Shown here: in pieces, positions 15,136-30,757 of the stretch
Numbering within the stretch: the stretch's first letter is position 1
Layout: every line of letters starts with the position of its first letter
Source of the DNA: Closterium sp. NIES-65
Lineage: Eukaryota > Streptophyta > Zygnematophyceae > Desmidiales > Closteriaceae
Direction: 5' to 3'
NCBI GenBank assembly: GCA_948144175.1
Contig: CANXME010000886.1
Location: 1,116,001-1,180,000, forward strand
Length of the DNA stretch: 64,000 nt
Program-made: the position numbers and the translations under genes
Notes under the pieces: model-generated
The model's input: only the letters and a program-made list of their open reading frames with translations
Databases searched by the model: none
What the model was told of the DNA's origin: nothing

Positions 15136-16582
15136 GGACTGCTAAGAAATGTATGAGGATTGAAACAAGATTTCCTTCCCAAGGGATAAACTGACAAGGG
15201 ACTACGAAAGTCTGCTCATATACGGATCTCACAATCTCAGCTCCTCATTCATTCTGTACTAAAGATTCGAAAAACACGCAGCACCATTCGCTTTCTGACC
15301 TGCGGTCTGGAGGTAAGCAAGTACACGCCGTGCTTGTGTTGCAGGAAGAGCTGCGGATATTAGGGGAGCTCCTTAGAACTTGTCGAAGCTGGGGATATGG
15401 TGGCTGATGTGTTTTCCTACTCTCGAGGTAGACCTGACGAAGCAGCAAACGAGAGCCAGTCTTGGCTAGATGGGATTCCCTTCAGTGAGCCCAACCTGGG
15501 CTCTAGGTGACTGGATTACACGCTGGAGGCAAGGCTTGGGCAACGGGAACCTCACCCTGAATCCGGGGACCCGCCACATATAGCCTTGAAAGTACAAGGT
15601 TTGGTTAGACGTACCCTTTTCATGATTCGGACAATTTCGAGATTTAGCTCTTCAAGCGAGGGTGGTGACTTTGTTCTCTCAAGCCTCGATTTAAGCACAA
15701 CACCTCGCTTCGATTAGCTAGCCCCCTCAGCGCGCGTCGAGGTGAAATCCTTGTGACTTGAAACTCTACCCAACCGTTCTGGTTTCTTGATGAACCGACC
15801 GCAACCACGCAAAACATCTCATCAGACCACAATAAGGAACCACAATACTGTAATTTATTGCTTCAGACCCTCGTCAGAAGCTGGCTAACCGTTCAAACAG
15901 CCGTTTATGCGGCGATGCTTGAACCCGCCGAAAATAGCTCAGCGGAACCAGGCTGTTTTCGCAGGCTTTTGCATTACTTGGATAATTGGGAAGTCACTTA
16001 CGGGAACTCTTCCGTCTAGGTCGCATTTACCCCTACTACTTCACGACTACCAGTCGTCAGGTCGCAGGCACTTACCAGTCCTCTGTAATCTGACCAGCTG
16101 CGTGATCGGCCTTGCTTGTCATCCAGCTCTCGGCGTGTGCTCGCTTCACATTCGAGTACCGTCTCGGCATCGTGCATACACAATTCGACATTCCTTATAT
16201 CGTCGTGCCTAGTTAGAATCCCTTGACGTATCGTCTGAGAATTCTGAAAACCAGAAAATCCGACATTTCGGATATGGTTGTGCCTGATTAAGATCCCTCG
16301 GCGTACCCGCAATCGAGTAAACGACGATGGACGTATGATGAGCTGAGGTAGCCTTTTTCAGAGTAAATTCTAAGGTTAAGGGCTTCATAATTGATTTAGG
16401 ATAGAGCGTGTGAGCAGGATAAAACGCTTTAGCACCACTTAGGCTAGGGAACCAGCAAACAACCGCATCAGATAGCAGCTTTAGCCGGTATCCCTTCAAG
16501 GTGGCTTCTTGATTCGAACCAGGAGGCAGCTAATTGGTTTGCGGGAAGCCGTCCGGTGCAGTCCGGTGCAGTTCGGAGCAGC
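15136..16582. other. Intergenic region between LRR gene 2 and the kinase gene
   Basis: No supported gene. A diverged direct repeat of about 48 bases is present at 16180-16227 and 16253-16303: both contain CGACATT, then ATAT, GTGCCT, and finally ATCCCT. The stretch probably holds the promoters of both divergently transcribed neighbours. Confidence 0.5.
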
Positions 16583-19500
16583 ATGGCCAACGCTCTAGAG
16601 GATCTCGAGAAAACCCTCGAGGCGAGTAGCTCGGCGCGCTGCTGGTTTCACTGCGCTGTTCTGCCGCTGGCTAGGCGTTCAGGCAACCTGCGGCCTCTTC
16701 TTCCTTCCCACCCAAATTACACCCACTACTGACATCAAGTCAAATCAAGCCGCTGTTTTTGTTGCCCTCCCTCTCTCCAGACCAGCTCCCAAGTGCATGT
16801 ATCAGAGCTCCCAAGTGCACCTTTTCTGTCCTTTCGCCCTCCAGACCAGCGCTCATGTGCACATCTCAGGCCTCCACCCCACTTTTGAGGCACCTCAATT
16901 GCCGCATTCGCATGTGTGTCCTACCCTCCCTCCATCCCTCTCTCCCTCCAGACCAGCTCTCAGGTGCACATCTCAGGCCTCCACCCCACCATTGACAGCC
17001 ACCCCCCTGCTCCCACCGCCGCTGCACTCCCCATCCCACCCTCCGCCCGCCCCTCCTTGTCTTCCGCCTCCTGCCCCTCCCCCTCTCTCTCCGAATCCCC
17101 CGCCATCCGCCCCACCATCACCTCCTCTGCCTCCGCCTCTCACTCCTCCCTGCTTAACTCAACATCCTTCTCTCTCAACCGCTCGTCACTGACCTCTCTG
17201 ATTGGAGCTCACGGCAAGGAGCCGTTCCTTATTGGTGAGATCCCTTCCCCATGACCTCTCCCCCTCTCCTCCCGACATTGCTCCACGTCCTTCTCTCTCG
17301 ACCGCTCCACATTGGTGGGTGAAGAGTATTTTTGAGAATTCTTTAAAAATACTCTGTGAACTTATTCTGTACGTACAGCCCCACCCAACCACACCTCGCC
17401 CCCCTGCCCGCCTCTCCTCCTCCCCACCCTCGTTCCGCCGCCCACTCCTTCCCTCCTCTTACTCCAGGCGTGTCAGGGGGAACGGCATCGGGCAAGACAA
17501 CAGTGTGTGAGCAGATCATTCAACAACTGCACGACCACCGGGTGGTGCTGGTGCACCAGGTGAGATGCGGTGGTGTGCGATGCATTGGAAAGACAGGTGG
17601 ACTGTGGTTGTTGAGTCAAGTCAGCAGTCATTCATTCAGCAGCTGCACGACCACTGGGTGGTGCTGGTGCATCAGATGAGAGGTGGTGCAATGTGATGAT
17701 GTATGGTGGGGTGTGAGATGGGGGAGTGCAGTTCCATGCCGCGCCATGGCGTGCATGTGCCCGACCGAACCCTACTGTATGAGGAGGTTTGAGGCGTCTA
17801 CTGTACCACATGCAGCCTCCGAGGCGACATGCGTTCTCTTCAAACTCTCTGCTTTCGTGCTTGCTTGCTGACAGACAGGAATCCTTTTGCCGAGAGTTGT
17901 CAGAGGAGTGTTTCTGGGCATAAGCATGTGCGCTAAGCTGGAAACTCTGCGTGTTCTCACTTGCCTCCCTCCGTGCTTCCATGCTGGCAGGACTCCTTCT
18001 ACCGGGGGTTGACAGAGGAGGAGCTGAAGCATGCCAGTGAGGGGGTCTCTGACGCCTCAGAAACCGTGCATGTGGGGAAAGGCATGCTTCTGAAGCGTTT
18101 TCTTGCTTTCGTCCGTGCTTGCTTGCTGGCAGGACTCCTTCTACCGAGGGTTGACAGAGGAGGAGCTGAAGCATGCCAGTGACTTTAATTTTGATCATCC
18201 TGGTAAGTGCCATGGTTAGCCATGGTGATCATCATGGTTTTGCCCGTCACCATGGCTCACTCAGTTGGGTTTGCATTGGATTACCACTTGTTGCTGCTTG
18301 CGGAGCGGTTACCATTGCAATTTGACAGAGGAGGAGCTCAATCATACCATGATTGTCCTACTTCAAATCCAACCGTCCTGGTAACCGCCGCCACCACTGC
18401 TGGTTTCCTAAAACCACTGTGAATTGTTTCCTGGTAACCGCCAATTGAAGAACGCCTCACAACCATCACTACCAGTTTCCTGGTGAACATTCTTTGCTTT
18501 CCTTTCCACCCCCGTTGCTCTCAAGGAGTGCCGGCGGCCCTATCAGTGGAATGATGGATAATCTTGCAAGCTGCCCTGCCCTGCCATTGTGCCCACCCGC
18601 CTCCTTCCCCTGTCCTCCCTTCTTGCCATCTCCCCCCCACCTTCTCCCACTCAGATGCATTTGATACGAACACGTTTTGTCCCATCCTCATTGCTCCAAA
18701 GGAGAACCGGTGGATGGATGGATACCTGCAGTGCTATACGCCTTCCTCTGCCCCCGCCTCCAACTCCTGAACCCTCTCAAACCCCCCCCTTCCCCCTCCT
18801 CCCTCCTTCCCCCTTCAGACGCCTTTGACATGGACGCACTGCTTTCCAGTTCCAACCATTGTTGCTCTTAAGGAGGGTCGGTCGGTGGAAATCCCCATGT
18901 CTGTCTGTCCCCTTCCTGATCCCTCCCCTCCTCCCCTCCTGATCCCTCCCCTCCTCCCCTCTCCCCTTACCTTGTCAGACGCTTTTGACACGGATGCGCT
19001 GCTTTCAACCATCGTAGCTCTCAAGGAAGGCCAGTCAGTGGAGATCCCAGTGTATGACTTCAAGACACACCAACGGAGCACGGCCGTGAGGAAGGTGCGT
19101 GTTTGGATGGAGGGAAGGTGGTTGCACGGCCGTGTTTGTGCGTGCGTGCCCTCCCTGGTTTCAATCTCAAGGAGGGCCAGTCAGTGGAGATCCCAATGTA
19201 TGATTTCAAGACACACCAACGGAGCACGGCTGTGAGGAAGGTGCGTGAGTGGAAGGAGGGTGGGTGTGTGGTATATGACATTATTTTCCTGTGCATTCAC
19301 CCTCCCTTGGCATTCTCAAGGAGTGGCAATTAGTGGAGATTCCCGTGTATGATTTCAAGACACACCAACGGAGCACGGCTGTGAGGAAGGAGGGTGGGTG
19401 TGTGGTATATGACATTATTTTCCCGTGCATTCACCCTCCCTTGGCATTCTCAAGGAGTGGCAATTAGTGGAGATTCCCGTGTATGATTTCAAGACACACC

Positions 19501-22500
19501 AACGGAGCACGGCTGTGAGGAAGGAGGGTGGGTGTGTGGTATATGACATTATTTTCCCGTGCATTCACCCTCCCTTGGCATTCTCAAGGAGTGGCAATTA
19601 GTGGAGATTCCCGTGTATGATTTCAAGACACACCAACGGAGCACGGCTGTGAGGAAGGTGGGTGGATGGGGAATGATTACTGTGGTGGGTAAAGGTTACC
19701 GTACGATCATGCTTGCGTATGTATGCGTACTTTCGTGGTTTCACTCTCGAAGGCATTATGGTGTTCCATGATGCCAGGGTGCGAGTGCTGATAAACATGA
19801 AGATCCACATGGATACAAAGGCCGACGTGCACATATGAAATGAACTCATGAACACAGATGCACTCTCATGCACACATAACATAAGGCCTCTGGATACTCA
19901 CCAAACCCCTCAAACCCCCCCTCTTCCCTTCCTGTCTCCCTCTTTCCCGCCTGCCTCCCCTTCTTCCCCCACCCTTACCCTCCACTGAAACACACACATC
20001 AGACCAACTCTGCTGACGTCATTGTTCTCGAGGGCATCCTAGTGTTCCACGATGCGAGGGTGCGAGCACTGATGAACATGAAGATATTTGTGGATACAGA
20101 TGCCGACGTGCGATTGGCCAGGAGGATCCGCAGGGACACGCTGGAGCGAGGGCGCGACGTGCAAGGGGTGATTGACCAGGTGTGTGTGTGGTTACAACAA
20201 GGGGTGTGACTTTAACGAATGGTGATTGATCAAGTGTAATAAAAAAATATATATCATACAACAAGGGGTGATCAGCCTAGTCGGAGGGAGTAGATCTCGA
20301 ATGTGTGACTAGCGAGGCACGGCGTGCAAAGGGTGATTGACCAGGTGTGATTGTATGAGATTAGGTGTGATTATAACGGGTTTAGGTGTGACTATAAAGA
20401 GTTCCGATTGATCGAGTGTGGTTGTAGGGGGGGGGGGGGGGGGGGGGGGGGTTCACCAGGTCTTATTGTAACAGAAGGATCTTGAATATTCCACCAAGGG
20501 GTGGTTTACTGATTGACCTGATTATCGCACGCGACCATATTCGGAGACACAAACAGATGGTGACGCGCGATTGGCCAGGAAGTCGGCAGCGACACACTGG
20601 AGCGATGGCTTAGAGGATACATCTGAGAACATGAACAATCCGCTCTCATGTCTGCGGGAGCTCATCATCAGCGAGTGCGGACGTTTCTCGGCACAACCCG
20701 AGCAGTTCACCTCATTGACTCGTCTGTGCAGCTTGAGGCTCTCCAGCTGCACATTCGTCGGACGCCTGACAACCTTGAGAACATGCCCAACCTGAAAACG
20801 CGACGAGCTCGACCTCGATGTCTTGACTCATGCAGCCTCCTCAAGTCTCTAGAGATGCTGGTCATTACACACTGCATGTCTCTAGTCGAGCTACCGCACC
20901 CGTCGGGCACTTTCACTGCACTCACGACCCTTTGCCTCGAAGGTTCTCTCTTGCTCACTCTTCCTGTTGAGATTGGAGGTTGAGGAGCTCTCCAATGCCG
21001 TTAGGAAGAGTGAGCAAGGGAAAATCGTTGAGGCAGAGGGTCTTAAGTGCAGTGAGAGCGCCTAACGGGTGCGGTAGCTCGACTAGAGACGTCAGTGTGT
21101 AATGACCAGCGTCTTTAGGGACTTGAGGCGGCTGCATGAGTTAACGAATCTCGCATCAAGATCGAGCTCGTCCAGCAGGAGCGTTTTCAGTTCAGGTCGG
21201 GCATGTCCCCGAGAGGCTGTCAGGCAGTCCATCGAATGTGCAGCTGGAGAGCTTCAAGCTGCGGAGGCAGGTCAAGGAGGTGACCTGCTCGGGTTGTTCC
21301 GTGAAACGTCTGCAGTCGTTGATGTTGAGCTCCCACAGACACGGCAGCCGATCGCTCGTGTTCTCAAGGAGATCCTCCAAGTCCTTGGTCCAATCCGCGT
21401 GTCCCTGCAGATCGACGTGCAAGGGGTGATTGACCAGGTGCGTGTGATTATCACGAGGGATATTGATCAGGTGTGATTTCCACTTCCATTCCCTGCATTC
21501 CAGTATGCTTGCTTTGTGAACCCAGGCTTTATATACCCTTGCACTCCGTTTCCCCTCCATCCTGTCCTGCCTTCCTTTTTTCTTCCCTGTACTTTCAATT
21601 TTTTCCCATTCCTTCCATTTCTTTCCTGTTCCTTTCCTTCTCCTTCCCTTTTTTTCCCATCCCTACGCTTCCATCCCTATCCATCCCTCCCCTTTCACCC
21701 TGTATGCTCCCTCCGCCTTTAAAGCCAGCTTTCTGATGATTTCCTTGCTTAGCTCAAAGAAAATTTGGTGCAGATTCAGAACACAGATCATCATTTCCCT
21801 GCCATCCCATCCCGCTCCTTCCCTTCTCTTCCCTTTCTCTTCCCTACCTTTCGTCCATCCCCTTCCTTTACTCCAATCCAGTACGCTCGTTTTGTCAAAC
21901 CAGCCTTCGATGATTTCGTGCTGCCCTCAAAGAAGTTTGCTGACATAATCATTCCCAGGGGAGGAGACAACCACGTGGCAGTGAACCTGATAGTGCAGCA
22001 TATAGGGTCGAAGCTGGGGCAGCATGACCTGAGGAAGATCTACAGCAACGTACACGTTATAGAGTCAACGTTTCAGGTGTGTGGTGCAGTGTGGTGCGGT
22101 GCAGTGCGGTGAGGTGTGGTGCACTTTGGTGTGGTGCGGTGCGGTGCGGTAACAACCACGTGGCAGTGAACCTGATAGTGCAGCATATAGGGTCCAAGCT
22201 CAGGCAACATGATCCGAGGAAGATTTACAGCAGCGTACACGTTATAGAGTCAACCTTCCAGGTGTGTGGTGTGGTGCGGTGTGGTACACTCTCATTCAAC
22301 AAGCTAACCAAGCAGCGCAAAGTGCTTGTCTCCTCCTGCGTGCCTCATCCGAATTCCACTTTCTCCCCTTTTCCCTCATTCCCTCCCCCTGTCCCTCTCA
22401 TCTCATGCACACCACGCTCATCCGCAACAAAGGGCACTCTTCTGTGGGAATGAAAGCACAACATGTATACCTTTCCTGTCTGGCTCATCCACATTCTACA

Positions 22501-25500
22501 TTTATCTCCCCCTACCCGTCTCCATTTCCTCACCCCGCTGCTCTCTAATGCCACCAGGTGCGGGGTATGCACACGCTCATCCGAAACAGGGACTCCAAGA
22601 AACACTCGTCTTCTCCATGCCTCATTCCCTCTGCCCCTCTCTCCCCATCAACCACCCCTCTCTTATGCCACCAGGTGCGGGGTATGCACACACTCATCCG
22701 AAACAGGGACACCAAGAAGCCTTTACAGTCGCCTCAAGAGTTATTCCCCCTATTCCTTTCCCACAATCCCCACCAGGTGCGGGGCATGCACACGCTCATC
22801 CGAAACAGGGACACCAAGAAGCACAACTCCGTCTGTTACATGCCGCATTCCCTCTGCCGCTATTCCCCCCCCCCGCAACCCCGTCTCTCTAATGCCACCA
22901 GGTGCGGGGTATGCACACCCTCATTCGCAACAGGGACACCAAGAAGCACAACTTTGTCTTTTACATGCCGCATTCCCTCTGCCGCTATTCCCCCCCCTGC
23001 AACCCCGTCTCTCTAATGCCACCAGGTGCGGGGTATGCACACCCTCATTCGCAACAGGGACACGAAGAAGCACAACTTTGTCTTTTACATGCTTCATTCC
23101 CTCTGCTGCTATTCCCCCCCCGCAACCCCGTCTCTCTAATGCCACCAGGTGCGGGGTATGCACACCCTCATTCGCAACAGGGACACGAAGAAGCACAACT
23201 TTGTCTTTTACATGCTTCATTCCCTCTGCTGCTATTCCCCCCCCGCAACCCCGTCTCTTTAATGCCACCAGGTGCGGGGTATGCACACCCTCATTCGCAA
23301 CAGGGACACGAAGAAGCACAACTTTGTCTTTTACGCCGACCGCCTCATTCGCCTCGTGAGTCCCTCTCTCTCTAGTCTTTTCGTTACAGGCAATGCACTC
23401 ACTCACCCATGCCACTCCACACCGCACACCACCCATCTCATGCTCTCTCTCATCTCATCCATGCCACCAAGAAGCACAACTTTGTCTTCTATGCCGACCG
23501 TCTGATTCGCCTCGTAAATTGCATTCGCCTCGGACGTCCCTTTGGGGTCCACGTGTCATGGAGCTGTTACTTTTAAGAATTCTCAATGCTCACAAGAGGT
23601 TTTTGTGCCACCTCCCTGTCACAGTCATTTTTCTCCCATGGTCTCAAGTTTTTTTCCCTCCTTGTTCTCCTCTTCCCTCCTCTCTTTCCTCCACTTCCCC
23701 TCGTCTTTCTCTCCTCGTCCCCTTCTTCTTCTTCCCAATCACTCCCATATGCTGGTGGAGCATGGGCTGGCCTGCTTCCCTTTCACAATTCCAATAGTCT
23801 CATATTTGCTTTCCACCTCCTCCCCTCCTCTTCCCCTCCTCTTCGCCTCCTCCTCCCCTCCTCTTCGCCTCTTCTTCCCCTCCTCTTCCCCTCCACTTTC
23901 CTTCCTCTTTCCCTCCTCTTTTCCTCCACTTCCCGTCCTCTTTCCTTCCTCTTTCGCTTCCTCCCCCCCATCACCACCATCAGCTCGTGGAGCATGGGCT
24001 AGGCCACCTTCCTTTCACTGAAATTCAAGTCACCACCCCCACAGGTAAACCTCCTCACAAAATCAGGATTGTGGAGCGCGGGTTGAGTCATCATCCCCCC
24101 CTCTTCCACCTACCACCAACAGCTCGTGGAGCATGGGTTGGGCCACCTTCCTTTCACTGAAATTCAAGTCACCACCCCGACGGGTGAGTAGCACTGGATT
24201 GTCACAGCTGCACCTACTCGCCCTCTGTTTCAACCCACCCCACTTTTCAACCAAGGTGACTTTTAAGTCGACTCAAAAGTCCCTAGTCGACTCAAAAGTC
24301 CTTAGTCGACTCAAAAGTCCTTAGTCGACTCAAAAGTCACCTAGTCGACTCAAAAGTCCTTAGTCGACTCAAAAGTCACCTAGTCGACTCAAAAGTCCTT
24401 AGCCGACTCAAAAGTCACCTAGTCGACTCAAAAGTCCTTAGTCGACTCAAAAGTCCTTAGCCGACTCAAAAGTCCTTAGTCGACTCAAAAGTCCCTAGTC
24501 GACTCAAAAGTCCCTAGTCGACTCAAAAGTCACCTAGTCGACTCAAAAGTCCCTAGTCGACTCAAAAGTCACCTAGTCGACTCAAAAGTCCTTAGTCGAC
24601 TCAAAAGTCCCTAGTCGACTCAAAGTCCTTAGTCGACTCAAAAGTCCCTAGTCGACTCAAAAGTCCCTAGTCGACTCAAAAGTCCCTAGTCGACTCAAAC
24701 GGCACCGAATTGTCACAGCTGCACCTACTCGCCTTCTATTTCAACCCACCCCACTTTTCAACCGAGGTGACCTTTAAGTTGACTCAAAAGTCACCTAGTC
24801 GACTCAAAAGTCCTTAGTCGACTCAAAAGTCACCTAGTCGACTCAAAAGTCCTTAGCCGACTCAAAAGTCACCTAGTCGACTCAAAAGTCCTAAGTCGAC
24901 TCAAAAGTCCCTAGTCGACTCAAAAGTCCTTAGCCGACTCAAAAGTCCTTAGTCGACTCAAAAGTCCCTAGTCAACTCAAATGTCCCTAGTCGACTCAAA
25001 AGTCCCTAGTCGACTCAAAAGTCCCTAGTCGACTCAAAAGTCACCTAGTCGACTCAAAAGTCCTTAGTCGACTCAAAAGTCCCTAGTCGACTCAAAGTCC
25101 CTAGTCGACTCAAAGTCCCTAGTCGACTCAAAAGTCCCTAGTCGACTCAAAAGTCCCTAGTCGACTCAAACGGCACCGAATTGTCACAGCTGCACCTACT
25201 CGCCTTCTATTTCAACCCACCCCACTTTTCAACCGAGGTGACCTTTAAGTTGACTCAAAAGTCACCTAGTCGACTCAAAAGTCCTTAGTCGACTCAAAAG
25301 TCACCTAGTCGACTCAAAAGTCCTTAGCCGACTCAAAAGTCCCTAGTCGACTCAAAAGTCCTTAGTCGACTCAAAAGTCCCTAGTCAACTCAAAAGTCCC
25401 TAGTCGACTCAAACGGCACCGAATTGTCACAGCTGCACCTACTCGCCTTCTATTTCAACCCACCCCACTTTTCAAACGCCTTTGTCTCAGTGCAATTGAA

Positions 25501-28500
25501 GTGACCGCCCCTACAGCTTTGAGATATTCCTGGGCATTTCGGGAAGAGACACCATAGGAGCAGCTCTTACATCTTAGGTGTAGGCTAGGTCTTGCCGTCC
25601 CATTCTCTTCCCAACCTTCCCCTCCCTATCCACATGCAGGCTCAACATATGTGGGTATCAACTTTAGCAAGAAGCTATGCGGAGTGTCCATAATTCGCAG
25701 GTAGGTATTTCCTACTTGTATAGGGAGTGTGGGGTGTTAGGCATTTTTCGTTATGCTGAAGTAGGGATGAGCAAGTGGCGCGCCCCTACACGAACACCTT
25801 CGTTTGCCGAACCTAACACTGTTCGGTTCGGCGAACACTTTGAGCAAAAAATGGTGTTCGCCGTTCGCCTGTGAAGGCGTGTTCGGGCGAACCTCGAACA
25901 CTGTTCGTGTTCGTCGCGGGCAAATTGCAGCAGCGGCCCGAACACGAACGTGTTCGGGCGAACATCGAACACTGTTCGGCGAACATTTTAAGCCAAAAAA
26001 AAATACCTGTTCGGTTCGCCTGTGTTTTTGCTCAACCCTATGCTGAAGTATGTGATTGTGTCTGTGTTTATGATTTCTCTGTGGAGTGTCCACTTTTCAA
26101 AGGTATGGCGTACGGGGTGTGTGTGTGTGTGGGATGCGAGGCATGCTTTGTGTTTCTCGTCCCTTGTGCATATGTGTCTATTTTTGCCCCACGCGTGTAG
26201 TGAGTCTATGTTTGAGTCGACTCAAAAATAGACTCGCTATGTTTGCCCCATCCTCCCTTTGCACTGGCAAGCGCATGTAGGACGATCGTGCTTCAGGGGA
26301 ATGAAGATCCTCTGTCTGTCCCATACACCCTTCCTATTGGGCGTATCTGAATGAAACCATGTCTGCTTCTGCCCGAGTTTTGAGACGTCTCAAAACTCGA
26401 AAACTCGCTTCTTTTTGAGACGTCTCAAAACATGAAGATCCCCTGTCCCATACACCCTCCCTATTGGGCGTATCTGAATGAAACCATCTCTACTTGTGCC
26501 CCTCCTTGTACCCCCCTTCTTTCATCCCATGGCACGGCAGTGGCGAGAGCATGGAGAATGCGTTAAGAGCATGCTGCAAGGGAGTGAAGATTGGGAAGAT
26601 ATTGATTCACAGAGAGGGGGACTATGGCAAGCAGGTAAGGATTGGATTTTCAATCTTGTCGAGTATGTGTGTGGGTGCATGCGTGTGTGCATCACTCGTT
26701 TGTTTTTTCATGCTGCACAGGAGGGGTGCCTACAGCAAGCAGGTGAGGCGCAAACCACCCCTAAAACTCCCTCCCTCTCTCTCCTCTCTGTTTCCCTGCT
26801 CTCGTTTGTATGCATATGCATGCATACACCGGTGGTGCCTTCTGCATAACATGTTGATGCTGACGTGAATCGTTCCGAATCGGTGGCAATTTTGAAGGGA
26901 GTGAAGATGGACAGAACACCCATCCACAGGGATGGCGACTTTGGCAAGCAGGTGAGGCTTCTTTGCCTTCTATGATGTGTGTGTGCGCACTGTGCATTTT
27001 GCATTGTATGTGCATTCTCTTAAGCATTAGTGTGATCTCACCTTGCCTCGCCCCTGTGCTGAAAGGGAGTGAAGATGGGCAGAACACCCATCCATCCACA
27101 GGGATGGCGACTTTGGCAAGCAGGTGAGGCTTCTTTGCCTTCTGTACAAGCCATTCAGCATGTGTGTACAGAAATTGACAGACAGACCATTCCCATCTCA
27201 AATGTCCTAAACCCATTTAGCAACAAACCTCACTTTTAAAATGGGCTTGGGAAGCAGGTGAGGCATCTTCCCTCTCTGAATTTTGAGTCGACTCGAAAAG
27301 TCAGAAGTCAACTTTTGAGTCGACTAAAAAGTCAGGGGGTGAGGCATCTTTGCTCTTTGCTCATCGCAGCTCCTAGTTTATTCCACTTCGACATGTGTGT
27401 GCTATAAGTGCATTATGTGTGTCGCTTTCTCCCTTGCTGCTCATGCTCCCTCTCCCCCTTCGCCTCCCCTTCTCCCTTCCCCACCAGCTCATACACAAGA
27501 ATTCCCCAGGGACATCGCCCAGAGGCATTCTTTCTCCCCCTTCCTCACATCTTTGCTCCCTCACTCCCCATACTCCACCTCCCCCATCCCCTTTCTGCAA
27601 TCTTCCGCCAGCTCATACACGAGAAGCCCCCCCGAGACATCATCTCACAGAGGCATTCTTTCACCTTGTTTATCTTACCTTCCCTCCTTGCTCCCCATTC
27701 TCTCTACCCCTCCTCTTCCCCCTTTCCATCCCCGCCAGCTGATATACGAGAAGCTCCCCCGGGACATCGCCCAGAGGCATGTCATGCTGCTCGACCCTGT
27801 GCTGGCGTCAGGTGAGGCTTTACCCCCCTCCCTCCTCGCCTGGCACGTGATGCTGCTGGGCCCGGTGCTCTCCTCAGATAAGCACCCTTATCCCGGTACT
27901 ACTTACTACTTACTGCTTACTAGTTCCTATTTAGTGCTTACTCGTTACTACTTACAGCTTACTGCCAATCAAGTGACCTATACACTGCCCTTCGATCTTA
28001 TTAAAGTGCTGCTTTGCTTGGCCTTCTGCCTTGATTTCACCCCTCTCCATCAGGCCGCTCTGCCATGAAGGCTATCGAGCTGCTGTTGCACCGAGGGGTG
28101 GTAGAGATGGGACTGAACCTTCATGCTTACGCTCCGCATCCTTTGCCTTGATTCCGATCCCCCTTATTCTCCTATTCCCCCTATTCGCTCTCCCCTCCAG
28201 GCCGCTCTGCCATCAAGGCTATCGAGCTGCTGCTGCACCGAGGGGTGCCTGAGGAGCGAATCATCTTCCTCAACCTCATCTCGGTAAGTTCATGATTAGA
28301 AGGGGGGCAGAATCATATTCCTCAACTCATTCCAGTGAGTTTATGAGGAGCGCAGAGCGGTATTTAGTGGTGCAGGATATTATCAGCTGGGTTATTCTTC
28401 ATCCGAGCTGCTGCTGCAACAGAAGGGTGCCTGACGAGCAAACCATTTTCCTCAACCTCATCTCGGTGAGCTCATGACTTCAAGGGATTAAGAACGGTAC

Positions 28501-30168
28501 TTGGTGGTGAAGAGAACAACCAGTTGGGTTCTTGCTCACCACAGCTGCTGCAAGCAGGGGTGCGTGACGAGCAAAGCATGTTCTTCAACCTCACCAGTGA
28601 GTGTAATAAGCGAATTACAGAGCGGTAATTAGTGGTGAAGAGGGTTATCATCTTGGACATTCCTTACCCCTGCTCCCTTTCTATCTTCCCTGCTCTAACC
28701 TCCCTCCCCCAGGCCCCTGAGGGCATTCACAAAGTGTGTCGGTGCTTCCACCACCTCATTAGTTCATTTCCATGTTCCATCTTTCACCTTACCTTTCCCC
28801 CCATGCTCCTTCACACCCATCCTTCCCTCCCCCAGGCCCCAGAGGGCATTCACAAAGTGTGTCGGTGCTTCCACCACCTCAAGATCGCCATGCCTTCCCA
28901 TTTACCTTTCCTGCTCCCACCCACCCTTCTCTCTGCTCCTTCTTCGCCTGTTGCAAACCTCCATCCTCCCGCCAGGCACCGGAGGGCATTCACAATGTGT
29001 GCCGCCGCTTCCCCCACCTCAGCGTCCCTGTGTCTTGTTCTTTCTCTGCCCTTCCATTGCTCGCCTCCTCTTCGCGCCCCTTCCATTCCCTACACCCCAC
29101 CACTCCTCCCCCCCCCCAAGGCTCCGGAGGGCATTCACAATGTGTGCCGCCGCTTCCGCCACCTCAAGGTCCTTACTCATCTTTGTTCTTTCTCCTGCCT
29201 TCCCTGCACCCACCCATCCTTCCCTCCCCCAGCCCCCGGAGGGCATTCACAATGTGTGCCGCCGCTTCTGCCACCTCAAGGTCCATACTCATCTCTGTTC
29301 TTTCTCCTGCCTTCCCTGCACCCACCCATCCTTCCCTCCCCCAGCCCCCGGAGGGCATTCACAATGTGTGCCGCCGCTTCCGCCACCTCAAGGTCCATAC
29401 TCATCTTTGTTCTTTCTCCTGCCTTCCCTGCACCCACCCATCCTTCCCTCCCCCAGCCCCCGGAGGGCATTCACAATGTGTGCCGCCGCTTCCGCCACCT
29501 CAAGGTCCATACTCATCTTTGTTCTTTCTCCTGCCTTCCCTGCACCCACCCATCCTTCCCTCCCCCAGCCCCCGGAGGGCATTCACAATGTGTGCCGCCG
29601 CTTCCGCCACCTCAAGGTCCATACTCATCTTTGTTCTTTCTCCTGCCTTCCCTGCACCCACCCATCCTTCCCTCCCCCAGCCCCCTGAGGGCATTCACAA
29701 TGGTTTTGAGACGTCTCAAAAACAACCTCGCTGCACGTTGCCGCCGCTTCCCCCACCTCAAGATAGTGACATCGGAGATCGATTCGGGGTTTAATGAGGA
29801 GTATCGAGCAGGGTAGGGGTGGGGGTTTGGCGTGGGGAGTAATGAGGAGTGCAGAGTGGTGTCAGCACCTCCCTCACCTTGCGATCCCTGTGTCTTTTTT
29901 CCCTCGCCGCCCATCCATTGCTCGCCTCTACCTGTTACTGTGCCCCACCCAACCCCTCCTTCAGGCCCCGGAGGGCATTCACAACGTGTGCCGCCGCTTC
30001 CCCCACCTCAAGATCGTGACATCGGAAATCGACTCGGGGATTAACGAGGAGTACAGAGTGGTGCCAGGAATGGGGGAGTTTGGGGACCGGTACTTTGGTA
30101 CAGAGGAGGGGGATGCTGGGAGGGATGATGAGAGGGATGGTGATGGTGACGCTTTTGAGGCGTCTTGA
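16583..30168 (+). CDS. UKL: Uridine kinase-like / UPRT fusion protein
   Basis: Pyrimidine salvage enzyme: the N-terminal half phosphorylates uridine/cytidine and the C-terminal half is uracil phosphoribosyltransferase-like. Exons join in frame with GT-AG introns: 16952-17234, 17468-17559, 18133-18202, 18979-19094, 20003-20179, 21882-22076, 23272-23355, 23984-24044 or 24123-24183, 25640-25700, 26541-26634, 27739-27811, 28201-28283, 29965-30168. They sum to 1593 nt (530 residues plus stop). A first exon with ATG 16583 ([15 protein letters not shown]) is tentative. Motifs: P-loop [64 protein letters not shown] part [53 protein letters not shown]. The last residues are acidic (GDGDAFEAS). Every exon phase fits, so the gene looks functional despite introns packed with truncated exon copies, listed separately. 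The symbol is the plant family name, not a proven orthologue. Confidence 0.88.
16782..16876 (+). other. 5-prime edge shadows of kinase exon 2
   Basis: CTCCAG followed by ACCAGC occurs three times: at 16782 (short copy), 16846 (about 30 bases of exon) and the real exon at 16952. The second copy breaks off exactly where a TTTTGAGGCACCTCAA palindrome begins (16871). Confidence 0.75.
17287..17314 (+). other. 3-prime edge shadow of kinase exon 2
   Basis: CCTTCTCTCTCGACCGCTC resembles exon 2 sequence at about 17168-17187 and ends in ATTG followed by GTGGGT, matching the real donor ATTG/GTGAGA at 17234. Confidence 0.65.
17323..17355. repeat. Palindrome, AATT-core variant
   Basis: Inverted arms AGAGTATTTTTGAG and CTTTAAAAATACTCT flank an AATT core, just after the exon 2 donor shadow. 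One arm is one base longer than the other. Related to the TTTTGAG...CTCAAAA family. Confidence 0.7.
17633..17675 (+). other. 3-prime edge shadow of kinase exon 3
   Basis: Copy of the end of exon 3 (CAGCTGCACGACCAC, GGTGGTGCTGGTGCA), downstream of it. The donor has decayed from CAG/GTGAGA to CAG/ATGAGA, and one codon has changed from CGG to TGG. Confidence 0.85.
17875..18050 (+). other. 5-prime edge shadows of kinase exon 4
   Basis: Two truncated copies precede the real exon at 18133: a diverged one at about 17876-17913, and a near-perfect one at about 17993-18042 with GCAG acceptor and [16 protein letters not shown] intact. The second leaves exon homology before DFNFDHP. Confidence 0.85.
18322..18490 (+). 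other. 3-prime edge shadows of kinase exon 4
   Basis: GACAGAGGAGGAGCTCAATC at about 18325 continues to TCCTG/GTAACC at 18380. Shorter TCCTG/GTAACC and TCCTG/GTGAAC remnants follow near 18432 and 18482. They copy the end of exon 4 and its donor TCCTG/GTAAGT with progressive loss. Confidence 0.65.
18655..18905 (+). other. 5-prime edge shadows of kinase exon 5
   Basis: After AG at 18654 and 18818 come copies reading DAFDTNTF... and [10 protein letters not shown].... The second continues, with a small frame-shifting insertion, through [14 protein letters not shown] before losing homology. The real exon starts at 18979. Confidence 0.85.
19164..19660 (+). other. 3-prime edge shadows of kinase exon 5 (four copies)
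   Basis: Copies begin at about 19164, 19314, 19448 and 19582; the last three are spaced exactly 134 bases. Each encodes the end of exon 5 ([19 protein letters not shown]) and runs into its intron. Donors are GAAG/GTGCGT in the first, lost (GAAG/GAGGGT) in the middle two, and GAAG/GTGGGT in the last. Confidence 0.9.
19745..19832 (+). other. Shadow of kinase exon 6, upstream copy
   Basis: A diverged copy of the first half of exon 6: CTCGAAGGCATTATGGTGTT, then GATGCCAGGGTGCGAG and GCCGACGTGC. It has lost the acceptor and carries several replacement changes. Confidence 0.75.
20214..20610 (+). other. 3-prime shadows of kinase exon 6
   Basis: Remnants of the exon 6 end (GTGCAAGGGGTGATTGACCAG/GT) recur at about 20214, 20320 and 20402. 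A longer copy at 20555-20605 (ACAGATGGTGACGCGCGATT, then GGCCAGGAAG) leads into the inverted LRR fragment. A further clean copy, GATCGACGTGCAAGGGGTGA, lies at about 21411-21438 on the far side of that insert. Confidence 0.75.
20427..20451 (+). repeat. 25-base poly-G tract
   Basis: An uninterrupted run of 25 G residues within the intron after kinase exon 6. The length may be uncertain for sequencing reasons. Confidence 0.9.
20606..21405. pseudogene. Inverted duplicate of an LRR gene fragment
   Basis: Two arms face each other with a loop of about ten bases near 20984. The plus-strand arm (about 20606-20980) reads [20 protein letters not shown], then [15 protein letters not shown]. The minus-strand arm (about 20990-21400) reads [15 protein letters not shown], then [15 protein letters not shown] and [18 protein letters not shown]. 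The arms are similar along their length and nearly identical near the loop (CTTGCTCACTCTTCCT and its complement). It is a gene fragment of the same broad LRR type as the genes at 6.5 and 12.8 kb, nested in a shadow of kinase exon 6. A transcript of the kinase pre-mRNA would fold here into a long hairpin. Confidence 0.85.
21498..21810 (+). other. 5-prime edge shadows of kinase exon 7
   Basis: CAGTATGCTTGCTTTGTGAA at 21500 and AAGCCAGCTTTCTGATGATT, followed by CTCAAAGAAAATTTG, at 21722-21763 are diverged copies of the start of exon 7 (CAG/TACGCTCGTTTTGTC). Confidence 0.7.
22150..22261 (+). other. 3-prime edge shadow of kinase exon 7
   Basis: The last 37 codons of exon 7 are repeated ([20 protein letters not shown] ... 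VHVIESTFQ) with an intact CAG/GTGTGTGG donor and three residue changes. Upstream is a GTGCGGTGCG-rich junction. Confidence 0.9.
22404..23240 (+). other. 5-prime edge shadow array of kinase exon 8
   Basis: Six copies with acceptor CACCAG start at 22558, 22675, 22777, 22902, 23026 and 23149, before the real exon at 23272. A more decayed copy lies near 22404. The last four spacings are 123-125 bases. Each carries [17 protein letters not shown], then drops out of exon homology before YADRLIRL. The later copies are almost identical to each other and to the real exon, so the array is still growing or being homogenised. Confidence 0.95.
23461..23514 (+). other. 3-prime edge shadow of kinase exon 8
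   Basis: [16 protein letters not shown] is repeated downstream of the real exon, with donor CTC/GTAAAT in place of CTC/GTGAGT. Confidence 0.9.
23571..23586. repeat. Palindrome, AATT-core variant
   Basis: TTTTAAGAATTCTCAA, a diverged member of the palindrome family, in the intron after exon 8. Confidence 0.5.
23752..24095 (+). other. Second complete copy and shadows of kinase exon 9
   Basis: Two complete 61-base copies with CAG acceptors and GT donors lie at 23984-24044 and 24123-24183. They encode the same peptide and differ only by CTA/TTG, CCC/CCG and ACA/ACG. Decayed 5-prime shadows lie at about 23753 (GTGGAGCATGGGCTGGCC) and 24068 (GTGGAGCGCGGGTTG). A 3-prime remnant is at 25486-25517. 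Since 61 is not a multiple of three, only one copy can be used per transcript. Confidence 0.9.
24256..25415 (+). repeat. Higher-order palindrome-derived satellite in kinase intron
   Basis: Roughly fifty head-to-tail units of 19-20 bases (AGTCGACTCAAAAGTCCCT and variants), each one half of the TTTTGAGTCGACTCAAAA palindrome. Runs of units are punctuated by a spacer (TTGTCACAGCTGCACCTACT, then CGCC and TTCAACCCACCCCAC) at about 24203, 24713, 25183 and 25425, giving higher-order periods of about 510, 470 and 245 bases. The spacer is also the sequence directly after exon 9, so the intron itself was amplified. Confidence 0.95.
25764..26038. mobile_element. MITE-like element with 12-bp target duplication
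   Basis: 275 bases bounded by GGGATGAGCAA and TTGCTCAACCC (an inverted pair with one mismatch) and flanked by the perfect direct repeat TATGCTGAAGTA at 25752-25763 and 26039-26050. The body repeats GTTCG/CGAAC words such as GTTCGGCGAAC and has no coding capacity. It sits in the intron after kinase exon 10. The superfamily is not determined; a 12-bp duplication is longer than most DNA transposons make. Confidence 0.8.
26078..26103 (+). other. 3-prime edge shadow of kinase exon 10
   Basis: TGGAGTGTCCACTTTTCAAA/GGTATG resembles the exon 10 end GGAGTGTCCATAATTCGCAG/GTAGGT. Short and diverged. Confidence 0.5.
26202..26235. repeat. Extended palindrome, TCGA core
   Basis: Arms GAGTCTATGTTTGAG and CTCAAAAATAGACTC around TCGA. 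Pairing extends well outside the core motif, with one mismatch. Confidence 0.85.
26374..26437. repeat. Two adjacent palindromes, ACGT core
   Basis: 26374-26399 is a perfect 26-bp palindrome (CGAGTTTTGAG arms, ACGT core). 26408-26437 is an imperfect one with CTTC...GAAG outer arms and the same core. Confidence 0.9.
26715..27256 (+). other. 3-prime edge shadows of kinase exon 11 (four copies)
   Basis: Copies end at CAAGCAG/GTGAGG or a variant: about 26717-26741 (decayed), 26893-26951 ([19 protein letters not shown]), 27061-27123 (same, with a 4-base CATC insertion) and a trace at 27243. The real exon is 26541-26634. Confidence 0.85.
27282..27332. repeat. Pair of decayed TCGA-core palindromes
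   Basis: ATTTTGAGTCGACTCGAAAA and TTTTGAGTCGACTAAAAA, each with one damaged arm, placed between exon 11 and exon 12 shadows. Confidence 0.8.
27488..27662 (+). other. 5-prime edge shadows of kinase exon 12
   Basis: After CAG at 27487 and 27611 come CTCATACACAAGAATTCCCC and CTCATACACGAGAAGC, each leading to CAGAGGCATTCTTTC. These are diverged copies of the first two thirds of exon 12 ([14 protein letters not shown]). Confidence 0.85.
27842..27877 (+). other. 3-prime edge shadow of kinase exon 12
   Basis: CACGTGATGCTGCTGGGCCC, then GTGCTCTCCTCAG, repeats the end of exon 12. The donor is lost (ATAAGC in place of GTGAGG). Confidence 0.85.
28054..28104 (+). other. 5-prime edge shadow of kinase exon 13
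   Basis: Acceptor ATCAG then [16 protein letters not shown], leaving exon homology after GGGGTG. The real exon is 28201-28283. Confidence 0.9.
28303..28600 (+). other. 3-prime edge shadows of kinase exon 13 (three copies)
   Basis: Copies at about 28305-28332, 28405-28466 and 28541-28598 retain IIFLN-like ends followed by GTGAG-type donors, with decay from copy to copy. The middle one keeps the CTCATCTCG/GTGAGC junction. Confidence 0.8.
28713..29816 (+). other. 5-prime edge shadow array of kinase exon 14 (nine copies)
   Basis: Copies start after AG at 28713, 28836, 28976, 29121, 29233, 29345, 29457, 29569 and 29681. The last six are spaced exactly 112 bases and are near-identical. Most carry 48 bases of exon ([15 protein letters not shown]) followed by GTCC, a weak but possible donor. 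The ninth copy has a palindrome inserted and runs on through [17 protein letters not shown]. The real exon starts at 29965. Confidence 0.95.
29704..29721. repeat. Palindrome inserted in an exon 14 copy
   Basis: TTTTGAGACGTCTCAAAA within the ninth exon-14 copy. The eight sister copies lack it, and the net gain relative to them is about 34 bases. Confidence 0.9.
29825..29895 (+). other. Decayed shadows between exon 14 copies
   Basis: AATGAGGAGTGCAGAGTGGT resembles the exon 14 segment encoding NEEYRVVPG. The following CACCTCCCTCACCTTGCGAT resembles CCCCACCTCAAGATCGTG. Both are out of order relative to the real exon. Confidence 0.55.
30149..30168 (+). repeat. Half-decayed palindrome forming the kinase stop codon
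   Basis: TTTTGAGGCGTCTTGA encodes the final FEAS and the TGA stop. It resembles the GCGC/ACGT-core palindromes with one arm damaged. Confidence 0.6.
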
Positions 30169-30195
30169 TGTGTGGGGAGGGGTGGGAGGTTGTTG

Positions 30196-30408
30196 CGGGG
30201 ATTGAGGAGGAGTTGAGAGTTGTGCCTGGGATGGGGGAGTTCGGAGACAGGGATGGGGGAGTTCGGAGACAGGTACTTTGGCACAGAGGAGGGGGATGAT
30301 GGGAGGGTTGATGATGGGGATGGTGATGGGGATGGGGATGGGGATGGGGATGGGGATGGGGATGGTGATGGTGACGGTGATGGTGATGGCGATGGTGATG
30401 GCAGGCAA
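30196..30408 (+). repeat. Tail shadows of exon 14 and GATGGG minisatellite
   Basis: After the stop, the exon segment encoding [18 protein letters not shown] is repeated once fully and once partly (30196-30320). It is followed by (GATGGG)n/(GATGGT)n to about 30408. The acidic GD tail of the protein probably comes from the same slippage-prone sequence. Confidence 0.85.
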
Positions 30409-30757
30409 TGCTTTTGAGCTTGGTGAGGAGCGACGAAGGAGGGGAGGGAGAGGAGAAATGTGGAGCCCTTGTTGCTTCCAATGCTGCTGTGGCTGTTAGT
30501 GCTGCCAGTGCCAGTAATACCGGTAGTCCCGGTTTTAACCATTGGGACAGCATAAACATGATTTGTTCAACAGGAAAAATAAACGAAAGCTGTTGTCCTA
30601 TCATATGGTAGTAGCTTATCCATCGCTGTCAACTGGGAATGTGCTTTCCCTAAAGGCCCGGTGGTCAGTCAGACCATGTCTTGCACAGTCATACATACGT
30701 CAGGTTGAACAAACAAGAAATAAATTAACGAGCAATCAAAACCGAGCATATCATTGA
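30409..30757 (+). other. 3-prime flank of the kinase gene
   Basis: No gene. AATAAA-like polyadenylation signals are seen at about 30578 and 30718, suitable for the kinase transcript. The right end AAAGC (30758-30762) is the target duplication of the next element. Confidence 0.5.

Follow-up and report, generated by a model that had tools for sequence, protein, structure and literature searches.

Direct copies of exon edges flank the exons of a uridine kinase/uracil phosphoribosyltransferase gene in Closterium sp. NIES-65

How do the exons of a gene come to stand among truncated copies of themselves, and does the gene make any use of these copies? The question is raised by a stretch of 64,000 bp from Closterium sp. 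NIES-65 (GenBank assembly GCA_948144175.1, contig CANXME010000886.1, positions 1,116,001 to 1,180,000 of the forward strand), which we call the window and analysed over its whole length. Its contig, C885 in the following, belongs to an assembly of 874 Mb. The window carries a gene for a uridine kinase/uracil phosphoribosyltransferase (UPRT) fusion. An original prediction for this gene held that most of its exons have copies of their 5′ part including the acceptor upstream and/or copies of their 3′ part including the donor downstream. It proposed repeated tandem duplication of segments spanning splice junctions, with the outer copy becoming intron. Our results agree with the core of this proposal, and we consider it likely that the copies stem from regionally intense local tandem duplication, i.e. 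from ordinary duplication filtered by selection and not from a special splicing device.

We modelled the gene with 14 exons between window positions 16583 and 30168 on the plus strand, encoding 543 residues; all 13 introns are of the GT/GC-AG type. Within one and the same frame we found the uridine kinase domain PF00485 (residues 106-291, E=5.6e-51) and the UPRTase domain PF14681 (residues 321-522, E=1.6e-74), such that the gene is a UKL (uridine kinase-like/UPRT fusion) gene. The intact frame of 530 residues reported previously corresponds to the present model without exon 1, and is extended to its full length by this exon of 13 codons with its GC donor. The closest proteins among the matches listed were the Closterium models P0001-P0007 with identities of 72-92%, where the lower values arise because those models take in intron sequence. 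The depositors' own NIES-65 model (P0004, 609 residues) departs from ours. It has a different N-terminus, intron-6 sequence replaces the end of exon 5 together with exon 6, and an extra partial copy of exon 11 is included.

To detect exon copies we searched each exon against the gene region (window positions 16300-30700) on the same strand at E<0.01, using reversed sequence as control. The search yielded 62 rows compared to 5 in the control, all 5 of which came from the low-complexity exon 2. An exon edge was touched by 38 rows, which adjoin 12 of the 14 exons (Table 1). In 24 of them the 5′ edge with the acceptor is found upstream of the exon (exons 2, 4, 5, 8, 9, 12, 13 and 14), and in 14 the 3′ edge with the donor is found downstream (exons 3, 5, 6, 7, 8, 11, 12 and 13). 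Not a single edge copy in this region was on the wrong side (0 of 38). One exon-9 copy reaches both edges of the exon. The 24 rows without an edge comprise eight of exon 2, which do not exceed the control, four inner pieces of exons 4, 5 and 6, two inner pieces upstream of exon 14 and ten repeats in the 3′ flank of exon 14. The inner piece of exon 4 (nt 19-46 of 70) fits the polarity poorly: it is slightly 5′ of the exon centre yet lies downstream, and is thus ambiguous. At E<0.001 none of the 14 exons had a minus-strand copy, and at E<0.01 no copy of exon 10 was found on either side.

The exon lists of the original prediction were retained in part. For 8 of the 10 exons said to have upstream copies these were recovered as edge copies; exon 6 has an inner piece only, and for exon 7 a marginal edge was seen in a run without low-complexity masking. 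Downstream, 8 of 13 listed exons have edge copies. At exons 9 and 10 none was found, exon 2 did not rise above the control, exon 4 has an inner piece only, and the entries at exon 14 are the repeats of its 3′ flank. The nearer exon-9 copy had been taken for a truncated one. It is a complete exon with both splice sites, and exon 9 is the only exon duplicated in this manner (23984-24044 and 24123-24183).

The identity of the edge copies to their exon ranges from about 74% to 100%. In a self-alignment the majority of the copies extend across the splice site into the flanking intron. Being direct, close to the parent exon and composed of exon plus flanking intron, the copies are tandem duplications across splice junctions, and the proposed scheme with the outer copy becoming intron is in agreement with their local position and polarity. 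The nearest copy is spaced by approximately 107-185 bp at most edges, by 317 bp at exon 11 and by 396 bp at exon 14. Younger copies form plain tandem arrays with units of 134, 123 and 112 bp. Array members are not independent of each other, and counting each edge only once leaves 16 edges in this gene. Between copies and exons (exons 1, 2 and 10 excluded) we counted 140 synonymous and 120 nonsynonymous differences as well as 2 stops, where 24% synonymous differences would be expected if only one, unconstrained side had changed. A copy that drifts beside an exon under constraint would fit this pattern. We do not claim purifying selection on the copies, since the 140 synonymous among 262 differences are explicable at least partly by synonymous change of the exon itself.

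Two further near-full copies of the gene, on contigs C985 and C2075, allow to follow the turnover of the exon copies. These two are 99.6% alike and differ by 13 mismatches and 81 gap openings over 22.8 kb. Between C885 and C985 most introns differ by about 0.4-2%, and introns 5, 9 and 10 by 7-10%, which goes along with arrays or inserts of differing length at these places. The exons of C885 and C985 are identical save for two bases in exon 9 and four in exon 2, consistent with both genes being maintained. In C2075 length or alignment differences occur in exons 2, 7, 8 and 12, which may be sequencing errors. In introns 12 and 13 (window 27812-29964) C885 and C985 agree at all 2,070 aligned intron bases, which suggests recent conversion or shared descent of this part.

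Copy numbers differ between the gene copies. Downstream of exon 5 there are four copies in C885 and two in C985, and upstream of exon 8 six and seven, respectively. In C885 the two exon-8 copies closest to the exon show no difference from its first 63 nt; in C985 each of the closest three deviates by one base. Such a pattern would be expected if junction-spanning copying had continued after the lineages of C885 and C985 split. The two complete exons 9 of C885 are 139 bp apart and differ at 4 of 61 bases, leaving the peptide unchanged. C985 and C2075 have a single hybrid exon 9 instead. In its acceptor flank and 5′ half it follows the first C885 copy, in its 3′ half and donor flank the second. 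Since C985 lacks at this place the stretch that separates the two copies in C885, the simplest reading would be that recombination within the exon contracted the two copies to one hybrid that still works. Four further places carry partial copies of the gene's 3′ half: C443:40.4-42.5k (L026), C885:936.4-938.7k (L025), C2284:180-182k and C2075:120.5-122.6k. Upstream of exon 13 the window has one copy, while L025 and L026 have two each; upstream of exon 14 (E<1e-4) the numbers are eight in the window, five in L025 and seven in L026. Judged from these comparisons, the duplication process is active, with copy numbers that are still changing.

The exon copies are not private to the uridine kinase gene. 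A paralog on contig C1772 has four upstream copies each of its exons b3 and b6, one downstream copy of b6, two downstream edge copies of b7 and inner pieces of b7 and b8. Its 11 edge copies include none on the wrong side, 6 of its 10 modelled exons are without copies, and the reversed-sequence control gave 2 matches over the 10 exons. We furthermore took the chaperonins (PF00118) as a family without regard to the exon-copy question. Local exon copies (E<0.001) were present in 23 of 30 loci and in 9 of 11 gene groups, one group being marginal only, with 1 match over the 30 loci in the reversed control. Taking one homeolog each reduced the 30 loci to 16 exons, and removal of L036 and L048 (stops in the exon model) left 14 cleanly bounded exons from 10 gene groups. 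Ten of these 14 have copies, 46 in total, divided into 20 edge copies and 26 inner pieces. None is wrong-sided or inverted, and every inner piece comes from the exon half nearest its side; 17 of the 26 inner pieces sit in L043, mostly in a 22-bp array. For kinesins we hand-picked eight small stretches on the plus strand, one per gene group and not strictly the top eight, where the groups C1673, C1440 and C2165 were passed over as their rows were already overlapping. Among the 14 kinesin exons obtained, 2 have copies, a number that may be low because the flanks are about 600 bp or less. All four kinesin copies have the expected polarity, and two of them are edge copies, none wrong-sided; one kinesin exon has one minus-strand match. 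Over this gene, the paralog, the chaperonins and the kinesins, wrong-sided edge copies thus amount to 0 of 71 (38 + 11 + 20 + 2). As a separate observation, adjacent inverted kinesin-domain matches, unlike the direct exon copies, stand at C511:712945-713361, C1725:169179-169595 and C1052:556971-557362.

The recurrence is uneven. Exon copies track dense flanking duplication: they occur at 10 of 10 loci with a flanking duplication coverage of at least 0.37 and at 2 of 12 below, a coverage that is partly made up of the exon copies themselves. Local duplication is patchy also within the window, where 5 of 16 four-kb tiles have none. Tandem duplications moreover fill intron interiors and flanks. 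A reading of the pattern as peculiar to this one gene, or confined to splice junctions, is thus not supported. The pyrimidine content of the flanks did not visibly separate loci with copies from those without. The three additional sets share the polarity; an excess at junctions is seen inconsistently (see below).

The likely explanation for these findings is that some gene-bearing DNA of NIES-65 undergoes frequent local head-to-tail duplication, and that the resulting arrays later expand and contract through recombination or slippage between the copies. If a duplicated segment straddles one splice junction, the copy beside the exon body would stay functional and the outer copy would turn into intron. 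The outer copy would then have either an acceptor with no donor at exon distance or a donor with no acceptor, and exon recognition could pass it over. Junction-spanning duplications may hence be tolerated because the outer copy lacks a partner splice site. Duplications within an exon or of a whole exon would usually harm the product and be removed. The survivors would mainly be 5′-edge copies upstream and 3′-edge copies downstream, which would drift in place. What causes the duplications at the molecular level, that selection filters them and that exon definition bypasses the outer copies are presumed parts of this explanation.

Several observations weigh against duplication at random followed by selection. 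A strict filter should not permit the complete second exon 9, which has been kept in a gene that seems intact. Support for the filter was sought in whole-exon copies within gene fragments, and this candidate was ruled out by the letters of exon 13 in L025 and L026: in both, where 3′ parts of the gene were all that the search recovered, an intact exon 13 stands beside extra 5′-edge copies, such that the filter gains no support from them. We also simulated random tandem duplication with an open-reading-frame filter, decay and deletion, at guessed rates. The observed combination, 15 spanned edges out of 26 together with at most 13 intron-only blocks, came up in none of 96 simulations, and in an earlier version of the simulation none of 24 runs reached the observed values either. 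The number of spanned edges per intron-only block was at most 0.63 in the simulations compared to 1.15 in the uridine kinase gene. In the chaperonins 15 of 28 edges are spanned, compared to a third of the flank points drawn at random. With the two settings nearest in interior coverage the simulation gave 4-12 and 4-9 spanned chaperonin edges (12 runs each), and none of these 24 runs reached 15; this number was attained under some settings whose interior coverage was clearly higher.

These deviations could be explained if splice junctions were preferred, either since duplication starts there more often or since copies at junctions persist longer than others; for the former, breaks linked to transcription or splicing, or the tract beside the exon, might be suggested as causes. 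The excess of spanned edges over the simulations in the uridine kinase gene and the chaperonins is in favour of such a preference, as are the additional exon-13 copies of the two gene fragments, which are likewise edge copies. It has to be taken into account that the uridine kinase gene was picked for the pattern itself, which weakens its figures. By a simpler count, which treats exon copies as interior, it shows little excess, with 16 of 26 edges compared to 54% of interior points. The paralog has no junction excess at all (3 of 19 edges by the simpler count; 3 edges and 5 blocks in comparison with the simulation). At the chaperonin loci intron-only duplications are abundant, and their flanks may hold unrecognised exons or other DNA that lowers the interior coverage. 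A modest preference for junctions is possible given the simulations; that junction preference accounts for the pattern we regard as rather doubtful.

Two further alternatives concern the origin of the copies as such. Noisy long reads could have been misassembled in repeats, and the assembly is indeed a draft in which C2075 shows many more gap openings than mismatches to C985 and deviates in several exons. Misassembly is nevertheless very improbable because the same copies stand on three contigs, with exon-8, exon-5 and exon-6 copies also held by a model from strain NIES-64. In addition the copies are diverged, and different gene families show the same pattern. The insertion of gene fragments from elsewhere, by gene conversion, retrocopies or mobile elements, might be considered since partial copies of the gene do occur at other places in the genome. 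We rejected this possibility, to which we give hardly any weight: the copies adjoin their own exon in the same orientation and on the matching side, mostly with intron flank, and retrocopies would be without such flanks. Local tandem duplication remains the explanation that we prefer.

We then considered whether the spare splice sites are used. The best candidate, called 11b, lies downstream of exon 11 and repeats its last 18 codons; it retains the donor that was copied along, and an AG directly precedes it. 11b is called as an exon in 6 of the 7 listed Closterium orthologue models that span it (P0001, P0002 and P0004-P0007), which come from strains Naga37s-1, NIES-65 and NIES-64. It is absent from P0003, the sole NIES-67 model spanning this place, while P0014 ends at exon 11. 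In addition, the end of exon 6 appears twice in P0005, P0006 and P0007, and the start of exon 8 four times in P0007. The latter, a NIES-64 model, shows that the copies exist in the assembly of another strain and that they also trip gene finders. For the published Closterium gene models, Augustus (weight 1) was used together with RNA-seq assemblies entered via PASA (weight 10 or 20; PMC10407611).

If the copies were functional, spare acceptors and donors would regulate splicing or provide cassette and alternative exons. The calling of 11b in six models from three strains, an annotation that drew on RNA-seq assemblies (PMC10407611), the repeated exon-6 and exon-8 parts in P0005-P0007 and a complete second exon 9 with the same peptide all point in this direction. 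The models may however stem from ab initio prediction or from protein hints, 11b is missing from the NIES-67 model that spans the place, and most copies have one splice site only. Using both exons 9 together, with 61 nt each, would shift the frame. Conservation of 11b was not significant: 1 of 18 residues changed between strains compared to 14 of 65 (P=0.17), which is indistinguishable from a weakly constrained linker. A structure prediction of the Naga37s-1 model with 11b had a mean predicted local distance difference test score (pLDDT) of 50.5 and was not used. Splicing use as read from annotated models is suggestive only, and we think a function of the copies unlikely. The same low expectation applies to a more far-reaching scheme, in which junctions would truly be preferred for duplication or retention, exons would be rebuilt from their own copies (exon 9), and intronic copies would supply a cassette exon (11b) as well as alternative exons.

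Tandem exon duplication with mutually exclusive exons is a general class of gene architecture. Exon 9, with two complete adjacent copies of 61 nt that are not both usable in frame, is alike; unlike in this class, nearly all other Closterium copies are truncated and have one splice site. Introner-type mobile elements are scattered in similar form over many genes. The Closterium copies found match the exon next to them (a common element was not searched for genome-wide). In the potato RdRp gene a tandem duplication over an intron-exon boundary gave rise to a new intron, the splicing of which is backed by RNA-seq reads (Ma, Lan & Niu 2016, PMC4974935). As there, the boundary-crossing duplication in Closterium carries a splice site, a polypyrimidine tract and part of the exon. 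The potato case is a single event and is presented as such in the parts of PMC4974935 covered here, whereas Closterium has many events per gene in several genes, and the outer copy mostly seems to be left in the old intron. If transcripts confirm it, 11b would be the nearest equivalent of the new potato intron. Hellsten 2011, as described in PMC4974935, likewise concerns tandem duplication that interacts with splice signals and alters intron content; in Closterium a splice site already present lies within the duplicated segment, and what can be seen is that introns become longer.

Among four Closterium strains, NIES-65 included, the assemblies measure 438, 703, 876 and 975 Mb, and for NIES-65 PacBio reads were assembled with Canu and Arrow, 10x linked reads serving for the scaffolding (PMC10407611). 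In a study that includes NIES-65 with its long-read assembly, Kawaguchi et al. 2023 (PMC10407611) reported copy number variation and widespread recent duplication in the Closterium psl. complex. Their account concerns whole genes, and the parts of it covered here do not describe sub-exon tandem copies. We did not find the pattern described in the open-access literature searched, a scope outside which most subscription papers fall. A single genome offers many natural junction-spanning duplications of varied age, and its near-identical gene copies record where such duplications were gained or lost. This material allows to test at which rate they arise, which of them survive, whether splicing disregards the spare sites and whether new exons are recruited from them. 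Caution is required with Closterium gene models, which may take exon copies for exons.

Table 1. Exons of the uridine kinase/UPRT gene and copies of their parts, in window coordinates.
Feature	Position	Strand
Exon 1 (GC donor)	16583..16621	+
Exon 2 upstream copy: acceptor and first 44 nt, 90% over 59 bp	16830..16888	+
Exon 2	16952..17234	+
Exon 3	17468..17559	+
Exon 3 downstream copy: last 44 nt and donor flank	17632..17698	+
Exon 4 upstream copies, two: acceptor with 30 and 50 nt	17850..18040	+
Exon 4	18133..18202	+
Exon 5 upstream copy: acceptor and about 80 nt	18783..18906	+
Exon 5	18979..19094	+
Exon 5 downstream copies, four: last 76 nt and donor; last three form a 134-bp tandem array	19165..19669	+
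Exon 6 upstream inner piece, nt 24-109	19745..19830	+
Exon 6	20003..20179	+
Exon 6 downstream copy: end and donor	20311..20354	+
Exon 6 second downstream copy: end and donor, 97% over 34 bp	21413..21446	+
Exon 7	21882..22076	+
Exon 7 downstream copy: last 119 nt and donor flank; 43 bp of the copy missing in C985	22143..22288	+
Exon 8 upstream tandem array, six copies: acceptor and 46-63 nt	22541..23271	+
Exon 8	23272..23355	+
Exon 8 downstream copy: last 75 nt	23440..23515	+
Exon 9 older upstream copy: first 35 nt	23752..23786	+
Exon 9 complete second copy, own acceptor and donor	23984..24044	+
Exon 9, downstream one of two complete copies	24123..24183	+
Exon 10, without local copies	25640..25700	+
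Exon 11	26541..26634	+
Exon 11 downstream 3′-part copy 11b, 18 codons, in frame	26898..26951	+
Exon 11 second downstream 3′-part copy, 4 gap bases	27057..27123	+
Exon 12 upstream copy: first 42 nt and acceptor	27488..27528	+
Exon 12 upstream copy: first 30 nt and acceptor	27612..27641	+
Exon 12	27739..27811	+
Exon 12 downstream copy: last 36 nt	27842..27877	+
Exon 13 upstream copy: acceptor and 47 nt	28043..28100	+
Exon 13	28201..28283	+
Exon 13 downstream copies of 3′ part, two	28404..28593	+
Exon 14 upstream copies, nine: acceptor and 19-56 nt; later ones form a 112-bp tandem array	28701..29702	+
Exon 14 including stop codon	29965..30168	+

Apart from exon copies the introns of the gene contain other repeats. 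Intron 6 holds a large imperfect inverted repeat (window 20598-21392) with arms of 166, 101 and 52 nt that are 80-90% complementary; by eye it resembles fragments of leucine-rich-repeat (LRR)-like open frames at 6.5-8.6 and 12.8-15.1 kb of the window. In intron 9, which measures 1,456 bp in C885 and 737 bp in C985, a 19-bp satellite of about 59 copies is built on the palindromic motif AGTCGACTCAAAAGT (window 24266-25413). Short palindromic inserts of the type TTTTGAGACGTCTCAAAA were seen by eye at 29701-29738 and about 26379-26432, one of them within an exon-14 copy.

A BLASTN comparison of the whole window with itself was dominated by repeats, and blocks at 40-44 kb and 60-64 kb are covered to 82-100% by local self-repeats. 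Three groups of open frames have the look of mobile elements: those at 30.7-36 kb (minus strand) we take to be Ty3/gypsy-like and those at 52.7-57.5 kb (plus strand) Ty1/copia-like, while those at 45.3-46.8 kb (plus strand) presumably encode a transposase of the Mutator-like element (MULE) type. The last 4 kb of the window have a very strong skew of G over C.

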